Shown: piece by piece, positions 12,873 to 58,910 of the stretch
Numbering within the stretch: the first letter of the stretch is position 1
Layout of the letters: the number at the start of each line of letters is the position of its first letter
NCBI RefSeq assembly: GCF_004193775.1
Contig: NC_041021.1
Coordinates: forward strand, 1,312,001-1,376,000
Source: Glycine soja
Lineage: Eukaryota; Streptophyta; Magnoliopsida; Fabales; Fabaceae
Length of the DNA stretch: 64,000 nt
Direction of reading: 5' to 3'
Notes under the pieces: generated by a model
Told to the model about the DNA's origin: nothing
Database searches by the model: none
What the model saw: only the letters and a program-made list of their open reading frames with translations
Position numbers and translations under genes: made by a program

Positions 12873-13980
12873 TGTTGAACAAGTGACCTCAGATATCTTA
12901 AGAAGAGGGGGGGTTGAATTAAGATATCACAATCTTTTCCTAATCAAAAATTCTATTTTGATTTTATCCCAATAACCCAAGATTCCTTTTAAAAATGAAC
13001 TCCTAAATAATAATGCAAATTAATCTTACTAAATAGAAATAATAAGCAATACACAATAAACAATAAAGGAGTTTAAGGGAAGAGAAAATGCAAACTCAGA
13101 TTTATACTGATTCGGCCACATCCTTGTGCATACGTCCAGTCCCCAAGCAACCCGCTTGAGAGTTCCACTATCTTGCAAAATCCCTTTACAAGTTTTGAAC
13201 CACACAAGGACAACCCTTTCTTTGTGTTCAGATTTCTTTATAACAAGAGACCCTCGGTCTCTTAATCCCTTTCGAGAAATAGAATGAAGAGAAGAAGAAA
13301 TCTCTCTTGAAAGAGATAGATTGTACAATTGAGCACTCAATTAATTCTTTATTGAATTGCAAGTGTATTGGCCAAGGAATTCTTAAGAGGATAAAATGAT
13401 TTTGCTTTTTGAGAGGATAAGACTTTTTGTTCTGAAAAACTCTAAGCAAATTCGTGTTCCAAGTCACATATAAATAGACCTTTGATGGCCATGTAAAAAC
13501 CATTTGAAAAGTTGTGACCCTTGGAAATAATTTTCTGAAAATCTCATCTGGTAATCGATTACAAGACTTGTGTAATCGATTACAGACTTTAAAATTTGAA
13601 TCAAAACGTTCAGTAACTCCTGGTAATCGATTATCATCCATGTGTAATCGATTACACAGTGTAAAATTTGAATTCAAATTTCTAATAGCTATTATAAGTC
13701 ATTTTGGCCACTGGTAATCGATTACATCCTCTGGTAATTGATTACCAGAGAGTAAATCTATTGAAAAAGATATTTTTGCTTAAATTTCTTGGTCAAACCT
13801 TTTGCAGTTTCAATTTGGAATTCCATTCCTAAAACACTAGAGATCTTCTTGATGTTGTATCTTGTATTCTTGGATTTTTGTCTTGAATTAAACTTGAGAA
13901 ACGCATTTTCATAAGGCATCAAAAACATCACGATCATATAGCATCATGAAAACATCAAAGGCAAAGTCTTTGCTTCTACA
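12873..13980 (+). mobile_element. Solo LTR of a legume copia-type element
   Basis: The block begins TGTTGAACAAGTGACCTCAG and ends TTTGCTTCTACA, giving TG...CA termini. It is flanked by a near-perfect 5-bp target duplication (TATAA at 12868-12872, TGTAA at 13981-13985). Internal marks match legume copia LTRs I recall: a G-run followed by TTGAATTAAGATAT, GTCCAGTCCCCAAGCAACCC, GAGACCCTCGGTCTCTTAATC, and several copies of GGTAATCGATTAC (13540-13750). No internal retrotransposon sequence adjoins it, so I infer LTR-LTR recombination. It lies inside the CACTA-like element and so inserted later. Confidence 0.8.
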
Positions 13981-34640: not shown

Positions 34641-35389
34641 ATTAGACTTAATTATCAATTTGATTCTTATATTGTTTAAAATATATAATTTGATCCCCAA
34701 ATTTTAAAATGCTCCAATTAGGTCTTTCAATTGTTAAAATTGTTTCAATTAGGTCCCTTCCAACCAGTTGATGAGGTTGACGTAGTTAAGAACTTAAGAT
34801 TGCAAATTTTAATGATTTTCACCTGTGAATAATGACGATTTATAATCGTTGCTATACTTATTATTGTTTTTAAATTAAAAATTAAATAAAAAATAAAGTA
34901 AAATTCTAACAAAGTGGCGTTTTTTAGCGCTCACTATTTGTAACACACCATGGTCATGGACACCATTAAACAACATCTTTGTACCTTCAAAATCAATGTC
35001 AAACAACAGCAACCACCATGCGACCACAGGGAGAAGACAAACAAACAACATCTACTCTATTATCCCCACTGTGACCACCCTCTATGTCATCATTATCTCT
35101 AGTGTGGTCGGTCACCCTTTGCATAACCTCACCCAGATCCACCGCTAACACCCATTGTCGCACCACAAAGAAAAGACAACCATGCATCAAAGAATGCATA
35201 GCTGAAGTAGCGTCGGAGAGAGGCACAACAAAGCAAAAATCTTTTTTATTGTTTTAGTGTCATGCAAGCATCATCCCTATGTAGCTCCCGTTCATTTTCT
35301 TTGTTGTTCCCTTCACTATCACCCTTCGCATCGCCACCAATCACGACTCAAGATGATCCTTCGGACAAGAACACTTGAGGGCCAATAAC

Positions 35390-35710
35390 GGCAAATTTAC
35401 CGTACAGGGCTTGTTTTACAAACAATTTACCAAAGGGGGTTCGTTTCTAAACAAATAACATGCAGGGTCTCTTTCCGACGTGGGTGCCGCCATTAACACT
35501 GGCGGGAAGCTTGAACCGCCAGTGCCAATGGCGGTAAGGAGGGTACCGCTAGTCCCACTTGCGGGACATGTGCTGAGTAGGAGAGAGGGGTGAGGGTGTG
35601 CCGCTGATGGCATCTGCGGGACAGGTGAGAGAGTGGGTGCCGCCAATGATGTTTGCGGCACAGGTGAGAGAAGGTGGTGCCGCCAGTACTGCCTGCGGGA
35701 CACCTTCAGC
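35390..35710 (+). repeat. Left terminal inverted repeat of the MULE
   Basis: About 321 bp, inverted at 46847-47164. The outer 95 bp are AT-rich. The inner 220 bp are GC-rich and hold six 21-bp dyads of form (G/A)CCGCY...GCGG at 35486, 35515, 35545, 35600, 35639 and 35679. A 95-codon open frame inside is shared by both TIRs and is best read as a by-product of the repeat. Confidence 0.95.
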
Positions 35711-35870
35711 TCCCTTGATGGGACGCATGAGAAGCCTGCTCACCTAGGGTTCACATGACTGAAACATGCACTGCACCTAGGGTTCAGTTTACGTTGAAGG
35801 CTTTGCAGACTTGCATTCTGAAAAGCATGTGAACGTTAAAAAATTTTGAACGTTGGGTTTAAGTTTTCAG

Positions 35871-35880
35871 CTATAAAAAA
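35871..35880 (+). promoter_or_regulatory. Candidate TATA box of the PMD gene
   Basis: CTATAAAAAA lies about 160 bp inside the left TIR, roughly 210 bp upstream of a strong leader-intron donor (CCTG/GTAAGT at 36084/36085). The position fits a TIR-proximal promoter driving inward transcription, as in MuDR. Confidence 0.6.
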
Positions 35881-36084
35881 AATGTTGAACTCATTCTTTA
35901 CTTACGTTTTTCCCTTACTGAGTTTGCTTTGTCTTTCTTTCTTCTTCACTTGAGAGATTATTGTACTGTGTTGTGATTGTTGTGCTGTGTTCGTGGTTCA
36001 AATTTCTCTAAAATTTAGTGCTTCTTGCTGTGCTTTCATCCTTCCTTGAAGTGCCCTTAGCCTTATCTTGGACATAAATTCCTG

Positions 36085-37597
36085 GTAAGTAAATATGTTA
36101 ATATATATTATAAGTTTAAGTTAGTTAGTATTAGTATTAACAAATATTAGTATTAACAAATATTCTAAGTTAAGTTAGTTAGTATTTAAATAGTAGCTTA
36201 GTTATTATTAACAAAAGTTCTAAGTTTAAATTAGTTGATATGAGTAGCTATTCTGTTATTATTTTTTAAGTATTAATAGATATTTCAATGTTAGGTTAGT
36301 TAGTATGAAAATATTATTTGGTTAGGTTAATTAGTATGAAAATTTTATTTGGTTAGTTAGAATTAAAATTTTATTTAGTTATTGTTATTGTATATATTGT
36401 TAGATGTTATTTGGTTATTGTATATAATATTTTAGTATTAGTAGTAATTACAGCATAGCATAGAATATTATTATTAATTTTTTTTTATCAAAGAATGAGA
36501 ATTTTATTATGAATTCTAGAAATATCTGTAAAATAAAATATATTCTAACTCAAGAAATATAAAGTTTTCTAAAATAATTATTCTTTCTTATCAACTTGTT
36601 TCAATTATTTTTCTAAATTTATTTTATTTGTATACTACATATGTTGTATAGAATCTAAATTAATTGTATTCTTAATTATTGGTAGAATTAAAATATATGA
36701 TGTACTTTTGCATGGGGTTGACAAACTAATTATTCTTATGAGTTTTAAATAAGAAATTATTTTATAACTTAATCTCTCGTAAAAAAATTGTATAAATAAG
36801 TATAATTGAAAAGAATATTATATATTTGTTTAGTTAGTATAAAAATATTACGTGTATATATATTTAGTTGTGTATATTCTTAAATTTTATACATGTCATA
36901 TTAGCTTTGTAGTATTAGGCATATATTTAGACGGATGATAGTTTAGTCTAATAAATATATATACATGCATCATACACATACGTAATATTAGATTTTTTAG
37001 TATTAGGCACAAGTTAATATTAACTTTAGGTATATATTTATAAATTTTAGACACACGTAAATTTTTAGTTTTTGTAATATTAAATATTTGACACTTAAAT
37101 AAATAATTGTAATATTAGACACTTGACACACGTAAATTTATCTTTTTAGTATTATAATTTTGTATTTTAAATAAATGAGTTGATAATTTAATATTATTTA
37201 AGTTAATTATTTTTTAGTTAGAATGGTATATATATTATTTGTTAGTTTTAATTTGTACGTTAATATTATTTGTTTTAGAAAATTTAAGTGATTGAATATA
37301 TGATACATTGTATATTATTATTATTTTTGTATATATATTATTGAAATGATTTTTTGCATTTCAATATTTGTTTGTATTATAAATAATTTGTTAGTCCATA
37401 TTTTATTCAATTATTTATTTGTTAATTGTAGAAAAAAAATTACTAATAAATTAAAGTTTTCTTCACATGTATTTTAATTTATGTATAGAATATATTAAAA
37501 ATTGACCAGTTTGATTTTTTACAAATTTATTGTTATATATTTAAAGTTTACTAATAAATTAAACTTTTCTTCACATGTATTATATTTTATTTTGCAG
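36085..37597 (+). other. Leader (5' UTR) intron of the PMD gene
   Basis: The donor GTAAGT follows CCTG, and the acceptor TTTTGCAG ends six bases before the PMD start codon. The 1513-bp interior is T/A-rich with no coding frames, as expected for a plant leader intron. Splicing is predicted, not shown. Confidence 0.6.
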
Positions 37598-37602
37598 TAG
37601 CA

Positions 37603-39860
37603 ATGGCATCTTCATCATCATCTTCATCACATATTAACATTAAATCTGGCCCCATCGATACTGATGTATTATGGATGCAACCTAAGCATGTTTCAGAACA
37701 TGTTTGGAATGGGGAAGAAGAAAGGAAATTACATATTAGACGAGCTGTCCCCACGTATCAAGGGGAAGAACAAATTCCAGAACAAATTTTTCCTTTTCTT
37801 CAACAATCTGGTTTCGGGTGGATTATGAAGATGGGTTTCTTAAAAATAAATGTCTCACTAATTAGTGCTCTGATAGAAAGATGGAGGCCGGAAACACATA
37901 CGTTTCACATGAGATGCGGAGAGTGTACTATCACTCTACAAGACGTCTCTGTGTTGTTAGGTATAAGTGTGGATGGTTTACCATTAATCGGCCCAACAAA
38001 TCTTGATTGGGCTGATTTATGTGAGGAATTATTGGGAGTCAGACCACAAGAAGGTGAAATTAAAGGTAGTGTAGTTAAATTAAGTTGGCTGGCTCACCAT
38101 TTTGATCAAATTAATAATGACGACGACGAAGAAGAAGTACGAAGGTTTGCCCATGCATGGATACTGAGATTTATTGGAGGTGTCTTGTTCGTTGACAAAA
38201 CCAGTAACAGAGTTTCGGTAAGGTACCTTCAATTTTTACGTGACTTTGAACAATGTGGCAGATATGCATGGGGAGCTGCCGTACTTAGTTTTCTATACAG
38301 AGAGATGTGCAGTGCCACTGATTATAAAACTAAATCAATCGGAGGTATGTGCATCTTACTACAATTGTGGGCATGGGAACGATGTCCCACGTTGGCTCCA
38401 AAGAGGACTCCTTCCCACATAGAAAATACACCACTAGGGCACAGGTCAGTCATTTTTAACAGCGTCTTTCATTTTAATAGAATAAATGGTTTTAGGGTAT
38501 ATTAAATTTTATTCTTTGTAGGTGGCTGCGACGTGGAAACCAACATATCGGCAATGATGATGTGAAAGTTTTTCGTCGCAAGTTCGATATTATGAAACGT
38601 CATGAGGTAAGAACCATGCTATTGTATTTGTAAAATAAAAAATTATATGTCTTATTTTACTACAATGTTCACAACTATGTTGTTATATGCAGTTTGTGTG
38701 GGAGCCTTACCCATCAACCGTTATGTCATTCTTGCCTCCCGTTTGTTTAGTCGGAAGTCTCGCCTGGTACGCGGTGGTGCCACTAATTTGTTTCCAAGTT
38801 ATTGAGTGGCACCAACCGGACAGAGTCTTGAGACAATTTGGGATGCAGCAACCAGTTCCAGAGTCTCCTTCACAACCCCTAAACATTCATGGCATAACAT
38901 TAAAGGGGAAACATGACGAAAATTGGGGACAATTGTTCGCCCCAATGATTCAGCAGTGGAATAATCGCCATGCATTTAGGGTCGACGCTTATCCCCGACA
39001 AGAAGGCCTATTGAGTTTTAACTCGGACTACATGGTCTGGTATAGGCGAAAGACAAAGATGTTTGTTGACCCAGAAAATGCAAAGACGGCTACATTGGTA
39101 TTTTTTAATTTTTTTTCAAATTTTAACTTGAACTTTTATTTAGTGATGGCCATTAATTTTGTTACCGTTACAAATGCAGGGTGAAGTTGCGGAGGCATTA
39201 CAATACATGGTGTCTCCTCAAGGGAGGAAAACATGCACATTTGATGATCTCGTGCCTTATGTGGAAAAAATTACAATTTTATCCGAAGAGCAAGAGAGAG
39301 TCACTGAGCCAGTGTCACATGGTCCCGCATCAGAGCGTCAATTTCCCGCACAACAGTTTCACATGCTTCAGTCAAGTATTGAAACTCAGGGGATAGCCAG
39401 AAGAAGGGACACTGTTGAAGCGGAAGAATATTCCCAACAAATGGCGGAGCGTGGCCATGGAATGTATTACACGCCACAAACATTTGCTGAGTATCCGACA
39501 CAGATGTATCAGTATCCTTTTCAGGGTCATGACACTGATACTTCTGCAACCCAGCAATCGTTCGGTGGTTTTGCGGAAACACAAGCTCAATTTTCATGGC
39601 CCACAATGACCCCTTCACAACAATATCATGGGCCAATTCCAACACCTAATGCCCCGTTAGGAACACAATGGAATGTACCGGGACAAATACCTAATACAGG
39701 TGACTTATTCGGTGTTGATTTGCGTAACGCATTTTCTGCGGAGGCTGACGAAGAAGAAGCGGGGAGGCATCGGGGCAGAAGAAATCCTGATCGCCAAGCA
39801 CGAAGATGGGATCGACCATGTGGCACATCCTCACGGCATCACGGACACCAAAATGAATGA
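37603..39860 (+). CDS. Plant mobile domain (PMD) protein, MAIN-like, carried by the MULE
   Basis: Four coding exons (37603-38444, 38522-38606, 38693-39097, 39180-39860) join in frame to 670 residues without stops. After a serine run (residues 3-9) and an N-terminal segment, the PMD core covers roughly residues 45-400, with TLQDVSVLLGISVDGLPL and the diagnostic LQLWAWERCP at 253-262. The C-terminal 200 residues are rich in Gln, Pro and Thr and end in a basic RHRGRR-type tail. PMD proteins occur as host nuclear factors (Arabidopsis MAIN and MAIL1, which work with PP7-like phosphatase in gene and transposon silencing) and in transposons. Its role in the element is unknown; it occupies the mudrB position. 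Databases often label such proteins 'PP7 long form homolog', but I see no phosphatase motifs. Confidence 0.93.
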
Positions 39861-40039
39861 TTTGCATGTCTCCGTTGATTAAGACTTTGTTGTATATTTG
39901 TAATTTGACATTCATGGCGTAATGTATGATATTCAGTTTATTAAGGCTTACTTATGGATAGAATTTATGTCGCGTATGAAACTATAATAATCAATGAACC
40001 CTAAAGCAAATAACAAAGGTAGCCAAAGGGAAAAAACTA

Positions 40040-41690
40040 ATGTTTCTAAGTAACGATGAACTTCAATGTGAACTAAACCCTAACCCATAAAACATAAAAA
40101 GTATCACATAACCCTTAAAGATGAAACACTAACCCTAACCTATAAAATATAAGCACTTAGCCCTTAACTGTACCGAAATAAACCCTAATCCTAAAATAAA
40201 AACCTAACCCTAACCCCTAAAAATTAGCCCTAACCCAAAAATGTTCAGCACTAAACCCTAACCCAAAAATAAAAAACCTAACCCTAACCCCCTAAACATT
40301 AGTCATAACCCTAAAATGTTCATAACTAAACCCTAACACTAAAATAACAAACCTAACCCTAACCCCCTAAACATTAGTCATAACCCTAAAATGTTCATAA
40401 CTAAACCCTAACACTAAAATACCAAACCTAACCATAACCCCCTAAACATTAGTCATAACCCAAAAAAGTTCATAACTAAACCCTAACCCAAAAATAAAAA
40501 ACCTAACCCTAACCCCATAAACATTAGTCATAACCCAAAAATGTTCATAACTAACCCCTAACACTAAAATAACAAACCTAACCCTAACCCCCTAAACATT
40601 AGTCATAACCCTAAAATGTTCATAACTAACCCCTAGCCCTAAAATAAAAAACCTAACCCTAACCCCATAAACATTAGTCATGACCCTAAAATGTTCACAA
40701 CTAAACCCTAGCCCTAAAATAAAAAACCTAAACCTAACCCCTAAAAATTAGTCCTAGCTCCAAAATTTTCATAACTAAACCCTACCCCTAAAATAAAAAA
40801 ACTAAGCCTAACCCTAAAAAATAAGAACTAAACCCTTACCCTTAAAAAAAAGTAATTTTATTTCAACTTCTAAATGTAATTGTATTTCCCTAAAAAATAA
40901 GAACTAAACCCTTACCCTTAAAAAAAAGAAATTTTATTTCAACTTCTAAATGTAATTGTATTTCCCTAAAAAATAAGAACTAAACCCTTACCCTTAAAAA
41001 AAAGAAATTTTATTTCAACTTCTAAATGTAATTGTATTTCCCTAAAAAACAAGAACTAAACCCTAACCCTTCAAATAAAAAACATAACCCTAAAATGTTC
41101 AGAACTAAACCCTAACCCTAACCACTAAAAATTAGTCCTAACTCTAAGATTTTCACAACTAAACCCTAACCCTAAAATAAAAAACTAAACCCTAACCGTT
41201 ATACATGAGTTAGCCCTAACCACTAAAATAAATAAAAAAGTAACCCTAAAACCTAACATAAAAAGAACTTAACATGAACCCCTAAACAATAAGCACTAAA
41301 CCCTAAAATAAAAAATAAGAACTAAACCCTTACCCCTAAAATATAAGAACTAAACCCTAACGCTTAAACAAAAAAACTAACCCTATCCATAAAATATTAG
41401 AACTAAACCCTAACCCCTAACAAATAAGAAGTAACCCCTGACCCCTAAAAAATTAAGAAGTAACCCTAACCCTTCAAATTCAAAAACATAACCCTAGACC
41501 TAAACTAAAAAAAATTAGCCCTAACCCATAACATATAAGAAGTAACCCCTAACCCCTAAAAATAAATAAGAACTAACCCTAACCCTTCAATTTTAAAAAA
41601 CTTAGCCGTAATCCCATAGTTCTAAACACTAAAACCTAAGGCTTAGACCCTAAACACTAAACCAAAATACTTAGACACTAAACCATAATG
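40040..41690. repeat. Degenerate telomere-like CCCTAA repeat array with 75- and 76-bp higher-order units
   Basis: About 1.6 kb is built from variants of CCCTAA and AACCCTAAC. From about 40240 to 40800 it forms roughly seven copies of a 75-bp unit (CCCTAAAATGTTCATAACTA ... CATTAGTCATAAC). From about 40818 to 41050 a different 76-bp unit (CCCTAAAAAATAAGAACTAA ... ATGTAATTGTATTT) occurs three times. The array lies between the convergent 3' ends of the two MULE genes, is far from perfect telomere sequence, and has no open frame. Confidence 0.9.
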
Positions 41691-41957
41691 ACTAAGTCCA
41701 TAGTTTGTCATTGTAGATAGTTAAAAAAACTAAGGTAGACAAAATACTTACACACTAACGTTTCTAACTAACGATCAGCACCAATGTCACTCAACCTCGA
41801 TTGATCCACTCCATTTATTTCAACTTCTAAATGTAATTTTATTTCATTAGAAGCACACATTCAACAAAAAGTAACTGACGATTTCATTGAAGACCAACAA
41901 GTAAATACATTGAACAAAACCTAAAGCAATACAAGATCGTCATGTAACATACATAAA

Positions 41958-44755
41958 TCAATTAAATGAATTACTCCCACGGTCAGATTGCATTGGACAT
42001 CGACGCCTATTGTGCCCTTCAGCTCCACATCTACTACATTTTTGTCGGTGGTCAGATGGTTCGACCCAATCCATCTCATTCCTTATCCTTGTTGATTTTG
42101 GCCGACCTTTCGCACGAATTGTAGTTGGGTCAGGGATTAGTGTCCATGCCTCATCAGAAGGAGGAATTGCCGCTTCATTCCCAAGAGGCCACCACTGTGC
42201 GGAGTATGCTTTTAAGATGTGTTCATTGGTGTAAACAACATCTATATATTGGTAGTAGTTCATGCTCACGTAACCACAAGCTGCAATAATGTGTGAACAT
42301 GGATAGTGAAGCGCAGAATACCTTCCGCATTGACAATAATGGCCATTCAAGTTAACTGCCCATTTTTGTCCGCCACGTTGCGTGATAGGATTGAAGGTCT
42401 CCTCTACTTCAAACCTTGTCGAGTGGATATCGTACACACGAACGATGTGCGAACAAGCTTGTTCTTGATTTTTCCTAAGTTCTGTAACAAGCTTAGAACA
42501 ATAAACTTGGCCTTCTCTTAATTGTCTTTGGGCTTGGCGACCACGATCAACAAAGTACTTTCGGCACCTACTATATGTTGACTTGACCAATGCTGTTATT
42601 GGAATGCTGCGACAATCTTTCAACACCTTATTGACACATTCTGATAGGTTGGTTGTCATGTGACCATATCGTCGTCCAGATGTATCGTAAGCCATGCTCC
42701 ATTTTTCCTTTGAAATGTGATCAATCCATCTTGCTATGGCTGGACTCAGTTGACGAAATTTTTCTAAGTTTTGATCAAACACATGCTTGCAAGGAGTGTA
42801 CGCTGCATCAAATTTGTTATCATCAAAAGTTGTACGTAGACATCAAACTCAAATTAAATTAATGTATAAAATCAACCTTACCCAATTTCTTGAACATCTC
42901 TTTTTGTTTCGCGTTGTTGAATTTGCGATTGAAATTGCTGGCTATGTGTCGGACGCAGTACACATGATAACCGTGGGGAGGTTGCCAACCAAGATGTTCG
43001 TTAGCGACAACAGATTTTATACTCGCGTGACGATCAGATATTAGACAAATTCCATTCTTATCTGTGACGTGTTCACGCAAGTGGGCCAAAAACCATGACC
43101 ATGCTGTTAGCGTCTCGCCTTCGACCACGGCGAATGCTAGAGGAAGAACACCACCATTTCCATCTTGCGATGTGGCCATTAACAGGGTCCCACGGTATTT
43201 GCCGTATAAATGTGTGCCGTCAACTTGTATGATTGGCTTACAGTACTTAAAAGCCTCTTTGCATTGACCAAATGTCCAAAATACTCGATGAAACTGACGA
43301 TGTTCGCGACTTACCCTATTACCAACAATAAAATCGTCATGTAGTATTTGAAAGTAAGAGCCAGGAGAATGATTTTGCATGTGTGTTAGCCATGACGAGA
43401 GTTTCGCATACGACTCTTCCCAATCACCATATTCAATTGCAATCGCCTTTTGTTTGGCCATCCATGCTTTTCTGTATGAAACCTTATAGGAAAATTCACT
43501 ATTTATCCTTTCTTGAATCAAAGAAATTTTTATTGATGGATCTTCTCTGATCATGCCTGTAATTCAAATACTAAAATAAAATTACAAATTAAAATAACAA
43601 ATAACACAAAAGTAGGATAATATGAACATAAAAAAACGTACCTACTACGCAAGTCGCAATTAAATTTGAATCAAGCTTCTCATGGTCTTGTGTCATAGTC
43701 ATATTTAGACATGTGTGCGGTCCACCCCATTGTGTCACTTTCCATGCATCAGTTTTTTTGGATAAAATTGCCCTCATATAAAAAGGGCAAGGAGACTCTT
43801 CGGTGTTGTTGGGACAACAAACGATATATTTGTGTGATTTCGTTTCAACAACCTTAAAAGTTTGATGCACCTTCATCACATATTGTTTCAGTGCATTTTT
43901 TACCGCATCTTTACTGTCAAAATCCATGTCAACATACAATTCTTGTCCAACATTAAAAGTCGTTGGCATGTCCAGACCACAAATGTCCTCCTCGTCCGGA
44001 TGACTCCAATTGATATTATTATAATGCATAGCATCATTCCAAAATGGATTTTGAATTTGTGGTACACCTAATAATTTTTTAAAAAAATCATGTCAACAAA
44101 CTACTCCTATTTAGTTACCATTAAATACAATTCTCATAAAAAGATAGATGTATTCAACTAATTTTGTATTTCACAAACATTTACCTTCGGTTGGGTGAAC
44201 AATTGAAACTGGTTCAACGATGTCAGTGACTTCATCGTCTGTATCAGATATTCCATCATCACTATCATCTTCATTGAAAGACTCTTCAACGTATGAGTTA
44301 GATGCAAGGTAATCGTCATCATCATCATCTTCATCATCATGTAAATTACTTATATTTCTTGGCAGTTCCGATTCATGATGAGATACATTACGTCCACATG
44401 ACGTAACAGAATTTGCAGCTTGAAACATCGAACCACCAGCAACATCCTTTTCTACGTACAATTCTAGAACTGACATTTGTTGTTGTTGTTGAAAACTTTC
44501 GATCATAGTTTCAACATCTTCGTCATCACAAATTTGCAATGCAACATATTTTCCTGAAACTAAAAATCTACAACTTATAGTAGAAATAATTTCATTATTT
44601 TCTAACTTTACCTTATCTCCAATTTTTTTTTTCAAAGCATTGAAACTAATTCCGCGTTTAATCTGAATGGCCTTTTTACTGCCTTCAAATATTGCACCAT
44701 CATTGTCTTCATATACTCTTCCATTGAAATACAACACTGTAATAATTGAATTCAT
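41958..44755 (-). CDS. MuDRA-type MULE transposase, intact, 838 aa
   Basis: Exons 44755-44185, 44067-43642, 43556-42882 and 42802-41958 join through GT-AG introns of 117, 85 and 79 bp into 838 residues. The order is: a PB1-like N-terminus (about 1-90); an acidic run (Asp-rich, about 140-180); a MuDR zinc-binding DNA-binding region (about 220-310, with C274/C275, C284, H308, C310 of the WRKY-GCM1 type); a MULE transposase core with VDGTHLYG (D445) and ISDRH (D507), and a probable third acid E612 in TTNLSECVN; a SWIM finger CxCx9CxH (C714, C716, C726, H728); and a CCHC knuckle (C813, C816, H821, C826). It should cut and join at the TIRs in the nucleus. No residue expected for catalysis is missing. 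Assignment of E612 is inferred from family alignment memory. Confidence 0.95.
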
Positions 44756-44762
44756 GATATAC

Positions 44763-45949
44763 CTACATCATCAAAATTAATAATAATTAATCATAACAAT
44801 AGGAGTTTTAAAATAAATAATTACTCATACTAATTTTATAATAAAAATTCTAATTAAAAAAATTAATTCACTTAAACTTTGCCTTCAAATATTAGTCTAA
44901 CAAATAAAATCATTACTTCAATTAAATATCAAATATTTATTTGCTTCCTCTATTAAACTTAAACTTCACATTCATACTTTATTCTAAAAAAAAGTACTCT
45001 AATTAAATAATTTATGAAAAATTCCTACTTCAAAAAAATTCCAGACAAACACAAAATGGAAGGGTTATAAATGAAAGGATTACACTTAAAAAAATTTCAG
45101 ACGGAACATGGCCAACACGCCTAGGCGCCCCCATATTTGTATCTTCCAAGTCGTTTTTCAGTACTAATTAACGAGAACAACTTACTTAACTCAAATGACA
45201 TATATTCGGTAATGAAGGATATATCATATATATATACATATGACAAAATTAGTAGGAAAGTATATTATCTATATATAGGAATGGAGGACACAGACAAATA
45301 AGGCATAATTTTTCCTCCATCTCTAGTTAATAGTCTCAATGGTTAATTAATTAAATTACATGCGCGTATATGTAAGGCAAAAAATACTCGGTGAACAACT
45401 AATTTGAAACTTAGTGAGACAAGGAGATAAAAGAAATATATACAATCCAACTAAACTTCTTTTATGATTACTAAAAATCAATAAATTACTAATAAATATA
45501 GTAACAAAAAATTGTTATTCCCATGTTAGTAAATTTAAATGACGGGACTTTTAAAATTGGTAATATTTTTCTTATTGTTTTTATAATTAAAATTAAAATT
45601 TCTTTTTGTTAACTTATACTAAATTTTATTACAAGTAAAATAAAACTTCGTACTCAGAACAAACAACAAAATACTTAAGAAATAACATGTAATTATTTTT
45701 TGTCTTAAATTAAATTATGTCAAATAATAATTCAGACGCAAAAACCATTAACAAAAAGGCTTACAAATAATTACTACTAATATTTTTAATATTTAAAATG
45801 TAATTTACAAAATTAATACACTTAAAGTTGAGCTTCAAATTTCATTCTAACCATAATATTTGTTACTTCAAAATAAAAAATTTGTACATCATAAATAAAC
45901 AAAATGAAAGAAAACTTTAATTAAATAAATATAAAACATCCTTACTTAC
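44763..45949 (-). other. Probable leader (5' UTR) intron of the transposase gene
   Basis: On the minus strand a strong donor (CTATA/GTAAGTAAGG, 45950/45949) and an acceptor (GATGATGTAG, ending at 44763) bracket 1187 bp of AT-rich non-coding DNA, seven bases upstream of the start codon. This mirrors the leader intron of the PMD gene. Confidence 0.5.
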
Positions 45950-46806
45950 TATAGAATCAAACTTCAAAACTCTTTCTTCCTCTTTCACAATACTCTGGTC
46001 TCAAATTTATGCAAGTGTGCAGAGTGTGATTGAAATTTGCTCTATTTAAAAAAATTTTTTAGCAAAGAGCTACGTACGCAAATTTATACACCATTATTAA
46101 AGTAACTCTGTATAGAAGTCACCTCCTACATGCCTAGCTCTTTAAGCTGCCATACATGCATGTGATTTCTGATTTCCCTATCCAATACAGTGCCCTATTC
46201 TCCTCCCTAGCCTGCATAAAAAAAATTCCAATGCATGTGAACCGTAGCTGCATCAGGCTTGAGTCTCGTCATTCAGGATCACTCTCCAAGCTTCAGTCCC
46301 ATCAAACCTATCACGTGGAGTGGTTTAAAATTATTATTATTATATACAAAACTGTATGGTTGATTTATGGGAAAAAAGTGTAAGAAAAGAAAAATAAGGA
46401 AGGAAAAGGAATAGAAAATATATAAATGATATTTTTTTTTCAAATTGTATGATAAAAAAGAAATAAAAGATAACAAAATTAATAAAAATTGTGTTTAAAA
46501 TTATAAAAAAATTTAAAACAAAAAAGATAAAAAAAAATTAGAAAAAATTTGTGCCTTGAACCCTAGCTTCAGTGCCATGTGCATGAGAATAATTTGTAAT
46601 TAAATCACATGCATGACTCGGAAATCGGAAATTATATGCGTTGCTTAAACACACAAATGAGATAAGGTTTTAAAAATTTAAAACGCACCAGATGGATATA
46701 AGCGGCTGAAATCTTCCATGACCTTGATGAATATTCTATTGTGAGAGACAAAAATCAGAAGATGATGTCTGATGATATAGTATAAGCTGTTATAACTCAC
46801 AATATG
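45950..46806. other. TIR-proximal promoter and leader region of the transposase gene
   Basis: On the minus strand TTTAAATAGA (46041-46052) is a candidate TATA element about 95 bp upstream of the leader donor. The rest is AT-rich without convincing genes. Confidence 0.4.
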
Positions 46807-47164
46807 CTGAAGGTGTCCCGCAGGCAGTACTGGCGGCACCTATTGTGAAGGTGTCCCGCAGGCAGTACTGGCGACACCACCTTCTCTCACCTGTGCCGCA
46901 AACATCATTGGCGGCACCCACTCTCTCACCTGTCCCGCAGATGCCATCAGCGGCACACCCTCACCCCTCTCTCCTACTCAGCACATGTCCCGCAAGTGGG
47001 ACTAGCGGTACCCTCCTTACCGCCATTGGCACTGGCGGTTCAAGCTTCCCGCCAGTGTTAATGGCGGCACCCACGTCGGAAAGAAACCCTGCATGTTATT
47101 TGTTTAGAAACGAACCCCCTTTGGTAAATTGTTTGTAAAACAAGCCCTGTACGATAAATTTGCC
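46807..47164 (-). repeat. Right terminal inverted repeat of the MULE, with inner duplication
   Basis: Positions 46847-47164 invert the left TIR with three mismatches. A second copy of the innermost 34 bp lies directly inside (46807-46840), so this TIR has seven dyads: 46817, 46855, 46895, 46934, 46989, 47019 and 47048. Confidence 0.95.
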
Positions 47165-47305
47165 GCCAATAACATCAAACCCTTAACAATGTTATTGTCA
47201 CGTTACATGTCACGCATACACCAACTTAATGTTGTTACATCAAACTGATGGAAGGCACCTAATTGGAGTGTTTTAAAATTTTGAGAACAAATTGATAATT
47301 AAACA

Positions 47306-57839: not shown

Positions 57840-58910
57840 TAAGAATTAAGTAACCTTATGACATAAGCATTTGGGCCATATCTCTAAACAAAGAATTCAG
57901 AGACTTATGTTGGATGAAATTCTTGACCCTTTGGATTTATCAGACTTTGAGGTCTGTATTGAATGCATAAAGGGAAAACGAACAAACATAAGGAAATTAG
58001 GTGTCAAAAGAGCTAAAGACGTCTTGAAACTAGTGCATAAAGACATTTGTGGTCCTTTTCCTACAACTTCTTGGAATGGACAATAATATTTCATCTGTAG
58101 TCCTTTTCCTACAACTTCTTGGAAAGGCCAAACATTAAACATTTGCACATTTGGGATTGTCCAACTGAGGCACGAAATTATACACCATATGAAAGAAAGC
58201 TGGACTCAAGAATAATTAGCTGCTATTTTGTTGGTTATGCTAAACATTCTCGGGGCTATAAATTTTATAATCCCACCTTAAGATCTTTTTTCGAGACGAG
58301 AAATGCGAGATTTCTTGAGGAAGTTGAGTTTGGGAAGGAAGAGAACATAATGAATGTTGTCTTTGAGGAAGAACCTATTATTTACAGTGATAAAGTCCTC
58401 ATACTTATTACTGTTCAAGACACAATTCTAGTAATAGAAGACAATGTTCAAACTATTGACATTGTTCCAGAACAAGACAACAATGAGGTTCTCCGTCAAA
58501 TATCTTTAGAGCAACCTCAAGAAGTGTCATTAAGGAGATCCATTAGAGAGAGGAGAAGTACAATCTCAAATGATTATATTATATTTCTCCAAGAACATAA
58601 GGATGGTGTTGGTTTAACAGAGGATGATCCAATCAACTTCTATCAAGCTATGCACAGTTCTAACTCTCAAAATTGGATTGATGCCATGAAGGATGAGATG
58701 AAGTCTATGAATGACAATGAATTTTGGAATCTAGTCGAATTGCGTGAAGGTGTGAAACCTATTGGTTGTAAATGAATATTTAAAATCAAGAAGGATTCAA
58801 AGGGTAATATCGAGATATATAAGGCTCGTCTAGTTGCTAAAGGCTTTACTCAAAAGGAAGACATTGACTAAAAAGAATCCTTTAAAGAAACCTTTTCTCT
58901 AGTATCTTTA
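57840..58910 (+). pseudogene. Copia integrase and reverse transcriptase remnant with large deletions
   Basis: The GAG-pre-integrase region (HLGHISKQRIQRL, about 57868) and the start of the integrase core (CIKGKRT..., KDICGPFPTTSWNGQ) end at about 58085. A 30-bp direct repeat (GTCCTTTTCCTACAACTTCTTGGAA, seen at 58051 and 58099 in shorter form) marks a deletion that removes the integrase catalytic core. Reading resumes in its C-terminal part (NYTPYERKL, CYFVGYAKHSRGYKFYNP) and reaches the first part of reverse transcriptase (WIDAMKDEMKSM, IYKARLVAKGFTQKE). The reverse transcriptase catalytic core is absent. Confidence 0.88.

Follow-up and report, generated by a model that had tools for sequence, protein, structure and literature searches.

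The question raised by positions 35390-47164 of a 64,000-nucleotide stretch of the Glycine soja genome (contig NC_041021.1, positions 1,312,001 to 1,376,000, forward strand; this whole stretch is called the window below) is what kind of transposable element lies there and whether any part of it deserves further study. An earlier note, made from the letters of the DNA alone, had taken it for a complete, young and possibly autonomous Mutator-like element (MULE). The answer preferred here, at a probability of roughly 0.75, is a structurally complete two-gene Mutator-like DNA transposon, with a MURA transposase gene and a convergent gene for a Plant Mobile Domain (PMD) protein, which would belong to a recently amplified Glycine family and whose intergenic spacer would be a docking array. 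Neither the PMD identity of the second gene nor the telomere-motif content of the spacer had been remarked on in the earlier note, and the spacer array is the part worth pursuing. The genome searched for relatives comprised 1.0136 Gb in 1,119 contigs, the window lying on contig C20.

The ends of the element and its target site are as follows.

35390-47164: whole MULE, 11,775 bp, between the two copies of the target site duplication (TSD)
35381-35389, no strand: left TSD copy, 9 bp, GCCAATAAC, identical to 47165-47173
47165-47173, no strand: right TSD copy, 9 bp, GCCAATAAC, identical to 35381-35389
35390-35708, plus strand: left terminal inverted repeat (TIR), 319 bp, from local alignment with the reverse complement of the right end
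46846-47164, minus strand: right TIR, 319 bp, from local alignment with the left end
46803-46840, no strand: additional 38-bp copy of the inner edge of the right TIR, 92% identical to 46841-46878 (repeat family D8)

An exact word search located GCCAATAAC twice in the window, both times as one of these TSD copies, and did not find it on the opposite strand within the window. The perfect 9-bp duplication lies within the 8-11 bp expected of a MULE, and perfect TSDs border 11 of 11 two-ended family members, the window's included (9 bp in six and 10 bp in five), given which the duplication here is more than chance. The TIR arms share 316 of 319 positions (99.1%), with three mismatches and no gaps; the length of about 320 bp reported previously arose from one TSD base pairing by coincidence. 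At all three mismatches, as aligned, the left arm has C and the right arm T. Across the family, TIR length ranges from 145 bp (member C11) up to 1,182 bp (C3).

Between the TIRs, two predicted genes face each other.

37603-39860, plus strand: PMD gene, four predicted exons, 670 codons plus a stop at 39860 (gene model)
37603-38444, 38522-38606, 38693-39097 and 39180-39860, plus strand: PMD exons (gene model)
41958-44755, minus strand: MURA-type transposase gene, four predicted exons, 838 codons (gene model)
44755-44185, 44067-43642, 43556-42882 and 42802-41958, minus strand: MURA exons (gene model)

All six introns of the two gene models run from GT to AG and measure 77-117 bp, and no internal stop was met, in agreement with the open reading of 838 and 670 codons proposed before. 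The MURA protein carries the MULE domain (PF10551, 59.8 bits) and the SWIM finger (PF04434, 24.9 bits) that mark a MURA-type transposase, both above the Pfam cut-offs, whereas DBD_Tnp_Mut (PF03108) reached 24.4 bits in the whole protein, slightly below its cut-off of 25, and 26.7 bits in the exon-frame scan; zinc-knuckle and PB1 gave weak Pfam matches. A search of the PDB with MURA returned no sequence relatives at E values up to 1. TSD, TIRs and Pfam domains together uphold the identification as a complete MULE with an open MURA gene. With this open transposase and its constrained, intact companion gene, the element is not a Pack-MULE, which lacks a transposase and carries host gene fragments.

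The product of that companion gene matches the Plant Mobile Domain (PF10536) with 295.8 bits over residues 70-427, DUF1985 appearing as a sub-threshold side match only, and no phosphatase domain was found in it by Pfam. Among the best 120 of 1,004 PMD relatives, all from Glycine soja or Glycine max, most are labelled "serine/threonine-protein phosphatase 7 long form", yet PF10536 is the precomputed Pfam domain in all 120, so this name looks misleading for the PMD family, and the element can serve as a clean reference for its annotation. Projection of the exon models onto the relatives (11 MURA and nine PMD copies) showed all splice dinucleotides conserved, the exceptions being C5s, with its large deletions, and a single acceptor of C5o. 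A one-base indel at MURA codons 41-43 is present in 5 of 11 relatives, within or next to the stretch where the window's copy has ten consecutive A, and some of these indels could be assembly errors. Over all pairs, decayed copies included and C5s left out, dN/dS was 0.31 for MURA (11 copies) and 0.40 for PMD (nine copies), so both proteins were under constraint during the spread of the family; these values show that the element has maintained its PMD gene.

The size and state of the family were estimated by several searches. As the earlier note had advised, further copies were sought, and the left TIR gave at least 45 matches in the genome (40 of 178 candidates were scored); the window's element was compared with ten more two-ended and two one-ended members. 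Nine of the ten hold sequence of both genes, and a 1.7-kb member on C15 matches neither. When the window's exon models were projected onto the relatives, both genes are open in 3 of 10 two-gene members, namely the window's, C13a and C14, the last with a 51-nt in-frame deletion that leaves its PMD frame open, and a frameshift, stop or large deletion affects at least one gene in 7 of the 9 others. A query with the first PMD exon gave at least 138 matches from 3,534 candidates, and a query with the frame of the third MURA exon gave the best 150 of 2,428; a MURA match lay within 30 kb of 97 of the 138 listed PMD matches and was convergent in 95 of these 97, and in at least 90 convergent pairs the two matches were no more than 10 kb apart (for one pair the calculated spacer length came out negative). 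In a sister subfamily, whose first PMD exon is 92% identical to the window's, five copies with different flanks (L060-L064, at C17:8.38M, C15:11.20M, C15:9.21M, C17:40.39M and C11:9.14M) differ by 0-1 mismatch in 2,601 bp. In view of these pairs, the two fully open members among the other nine and the five sister copies, the suggestion that an intact legume MULE of this kind is unusual is not supported: the window's element has many counterparts and is an ordinary and well-preserved representative of a soybean family that amplified recently.

Two non-autonomous relatives were recorded on the side, both with a perfect TSD: the 1.7-kb copy without either gene (L028, C15:15348600-15350304) and a 7-kb copy (L017, C5:26664794-26671783), in which an internal deletion took the spacer and parts of both genes.

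The age of the window's insertion had been judged in part by TIR identity, which is a poor clock for a DNA transposon, since both arms are inherited together, and was rejected as an age measure here. The youth itself finds support through close relatives. Between the element and C11, identity is 99.89% over 1,894 bp of non-coding DNA upstream of PMD and 99.56% over 2,261 bp of the PMD gene, and the left half as a whole shows 12 differences in 4,155 bp, which at a yearly rate of 1.3e-8 or 6.1e-9 substitutions per site would correspond to about 0.1-0.25 My, a figure that gene conversion could make too young. The MURA side is nearest to C3, C13a and C2, with identity to C11 falling to 95.88% in the part upstream of MURA, and the element looks like a mosaic of two lineages. 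Its synonymous distance to C13a and to C3 is about fourfold larger in PMD than in MURA, and that to C2 is 2.6-fold larger (Fisher p = 0.013, 0.013 and 0.049, respectively, uncorrected), a gap that was not found in the other five two-gene copies compared (C1, C11, C14, C18a and C18b). Recent activity of the wider family is well supported by the near-identical sister copies. The search for an empty or homeologous site yielded none in this genome: the joined flanks (400 bp) matched in full length only the two sides of the element's own site, with three further short matches at 79-86% identity.

Completeness of this kind is also what would be seen if the element were now silent, having been moved recently by its own transposase or that of another copy, with frames that have not yet decayed. 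The broken genes in seven of the nine other two-gene members speak for such silence, the C-to-T direction of all three TIR differences would suit methylated cytosines, and the perfect TSDs of gene-less or largely deleted short members indicate that movement in trans happens; the open frames of the window's copy and the family-wide constraint in both genes point the other way. On balance, present silence is a real possibility, though a somewhat doubtful one.

The spacer separates the 3' ends of the two genes.

39861-41957, plus strand: intergenic spacer, made up mostly of telomere-motif repeats in tandem, with their core at about 40070-41700 (motif counts)

On the PMD sense strand, its 2.1 kb hold 55 CCCTAA and no TTAGGG, compared with a mean of 9.3 and a maximum of 15 CCCTAA in 100 dinucleotide-preserving shuffles of the spacer; the remaining window (62,250 bases) has 18 CCCTAA and 9 TTAGGG. 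The array units measure 75, 76 and about 28 bp. The 76-bp unit contains a segment also found at 41814-41852, beside the MURA 3' end (repeat family D9), and this uptake of a segment from the MURA 3' side indicates that the array grows in place.

Retention of the array was followed through 43 spacers, the window's included. In ten elements, nine of the window's family and one of the sister subfamily (L036), 49-125 CCCTAA and no TTAGGG were counted in each, C5s being left out of the motif counts for the loss of its spacer; three distant members showed 19, 23 and 115 TTAGGG and no CCCTAA. Another twenty spacers were hand-picked across the PMD ranking, with about 480-600 bp read in each, and proved to be CCCTAA-type in 18 cases (four of them sparse, with 4-6 motifs) and TTAGGG-type in two, the opposite motif turning up in only one of the twenty, as a single copy. 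The last ten were MURA loci, again chosen by hand, for which the list showed no PMD partner; with a convergent PMD assumed for their orientation, eight are TTAGGG-type with 22-47 motifs, and in the other two, with 0-1 motif, PMD coding sequence (72-73% identical) occupies the place. Altogether, 37 spacers have a clear array, four a sparse one and two none; 28 are CCCTAA-type and 13 TTAGGG-type, the orientation tracking the subfamily. These counts show that the telomere-motif spacer is retained with both genes in most sampled relatives.

Tentatively, the spacer is a putative docking array for a chromatin factor. An RNA signal is not expected to work on either strand, and a double-stranded binding site would, so the occurrence of arrays in either orientation fits the latter better. 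The same point is awkward for a bidirectional transcription terminator, or an insulator, separating the two genes, as far as it would act at the RNA level; the array does sit exactly between both 3' ends, as such a device should, and still we consider this explanation improbable, the second subfamily carrying the motif on the opposite strand.

Several observations weigh against the preferred answer as a whole. Two of the 43 spacers lack the array, both through a deletion that extends into PMD, and 41 of the 138 PMD matches have no MURA match within 30 kb among the best 150 of 2,428. Telomere-motif triplets are common elsewhere, with 16,659 in the whole genome as compared with 101 of the backwards pattern, so that an array of this kind calls for no special role, nor is it exclusive to the MURA-PMD family. 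Shared descent could explain its retention, and the two orientations could reflect perhaps two origins, or one.

Alternatively, the array may be neutral, telomere-like DNA having entered the spacer once or twice and been copied along since, with growth and shrinkage by slippage, and to this we give close to even odds. Array length varies widely, from 1.9-3.3 kb in the ten elements to about 0.5 kb in two others, and among the five near-identical sister copies an array deletion has brought the inferred spacer of that at C17:40.39M down to about 0.49 kb, compared with near 3.42 kb in the other four; similar arrays elsewhere in the genome and the in-place growth of the 76-bp unit agree with neutrality as well. 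Harder to reconcile with it are the strand purity and the presence of an array in 41 of 43 sampled spacers, across relatives as distant as 70-72% identity in PMD.

An argument for function from repeated origin is weak. Three CCCTAA-type arrays aligned with five reversed TTAGGG-type arrays at scores of 72-315, against 33-74 with two control arrays taken from the top of the genome-wide pattern list (C1:51-57 kb and C1:112.5-120.5 kb). At the same time, a plain CCCTAAA repeat scored 207 and 359 with two of the CCCTAA-type arrays and 340-824 with three reversed TTAGGG-type ones. Any kinship of the opposite types is thus not clearly above likeness to a plain telomere repeat, so neither inversion nor a separate origin of the orientations is established.

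The two control arrays contained no PMD or MURA match above noise. In the region C1:46501-57000 (L065 and L068), telomere-motif arrays occur in both orientations, with 71 TTAGGG and 19 CCCTAA in L065 and 88 TTAGGG in L068, together with an imperfect palindrome of 1.4 kb and two open reading frames of 91 and 124 aa without a Pfam match; one of the control arrays, viewed with 4.5 kb more on each side, lies beside these frames.

The layout of the element recalls maize MuDR, in which two convergent genes lie between TIRs flanked by a 9-bp TSD, the second gene being mudrB. The window's element has PMD in place of mudrB and is more than twice as long as MuDR. Closer counterparts are the MUDR (group 50) and MUDRAVI2 (group 49) MULEs of Dupeyron et al. 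(2019; PMC6446971), most members of which carry an antisense PMD, with a SWIM transposase, a 9-10 bp TSD and TIRs up to about 290-320 bp, group 50 including soybean elements. MULEs with an antisense PMD gene are therefore already published, and the window's element, with PMD on the plus and MURA on the minus strand, adds a member; the fit is one of layout, the TIRs of its family reach 1,182 bp, and the consulted part of that paper makes no mention of a telomere-motif spacer for either group. By title or abstract opening, nothing on telomere repeats in MULEs was found in the open-access literature. The family may already be catalogued in Repbase or SoyTEdb.

For a possible working mode, Arabidopsis VANDAL21 offers an analogy: its VANC protein is an anti-silencing factor that binds YAGTATTAY, and in the VANDAL/VANC system the protein encoded by the element recognises short motifs that have multiplied into tandem repeats within that element, and its binding causes loss of methylation (PMC5735166). 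Both elements combine a transposase and a second gene with short-motif tandem arrays in non-coding DNA, here of CCCTAA; the window's element differs in its PMD and telomere motif, so that any likeness would be one of mechanism only. A VANC-type second gene, going by VANC domain content, is not what was found, DUF1985 staying below threshold in the PMD protein. MAIN and MAIL1 are host PMD proteins with a part in silencing, against which MULEs might employ captured PMD, as Ikeda et al. (2017; PMC5418596) speculate. In grasses and Amborella those authors describe PMD-C fused to the transposase (PMC5418596), whereas the window's PMD is a separate convergent gene in a eudicot. According to Nicolau et al. 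(PMC7156037), the PMD-C of eudicots is mainly genic.

In the mechanism that we would propose, MURA most likely binds the TIRs, excises the element and reinserts it, leaving the 9-bp duplication, its catalysis being judged from the family. PMD would most likely be an accessory factor acting on chromatin silencing. The telomere-motif spacer would most likely be a double-stranded docking array for a protein of the element or for host telobox-binding proteins, and this is the weakest step. Host telobox proteins recruit Polycomb and are a second candidate reader of the array. Taken further, the PMD-bearing MULE lineage might keep its strand-pure array, opposite in two subfamilies, as a binding platform for PMD, MURA or the host telobox machinery and so avoid lasting silencing by methylation; this extension we regard as unlikely. 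If true, it would be a second, independent anti-silencing system of the "accessory protein plus tandem motif" kind, built on a motif that the host cannot easily give up. The array kept in most sampled copies would make the published guess on MULE-borne PMD acting against silencing (PMC5418596) testable on a defined DNA target.

Elsewhere in the window, an open frame of 224 aa at 58101-58772 reads like a fragment of what we take to be a Ty1/copia polyprotein, and another of 156 aa at 13231-13698 on the minus strand has an internal repeat like CNRLH...NRLP.

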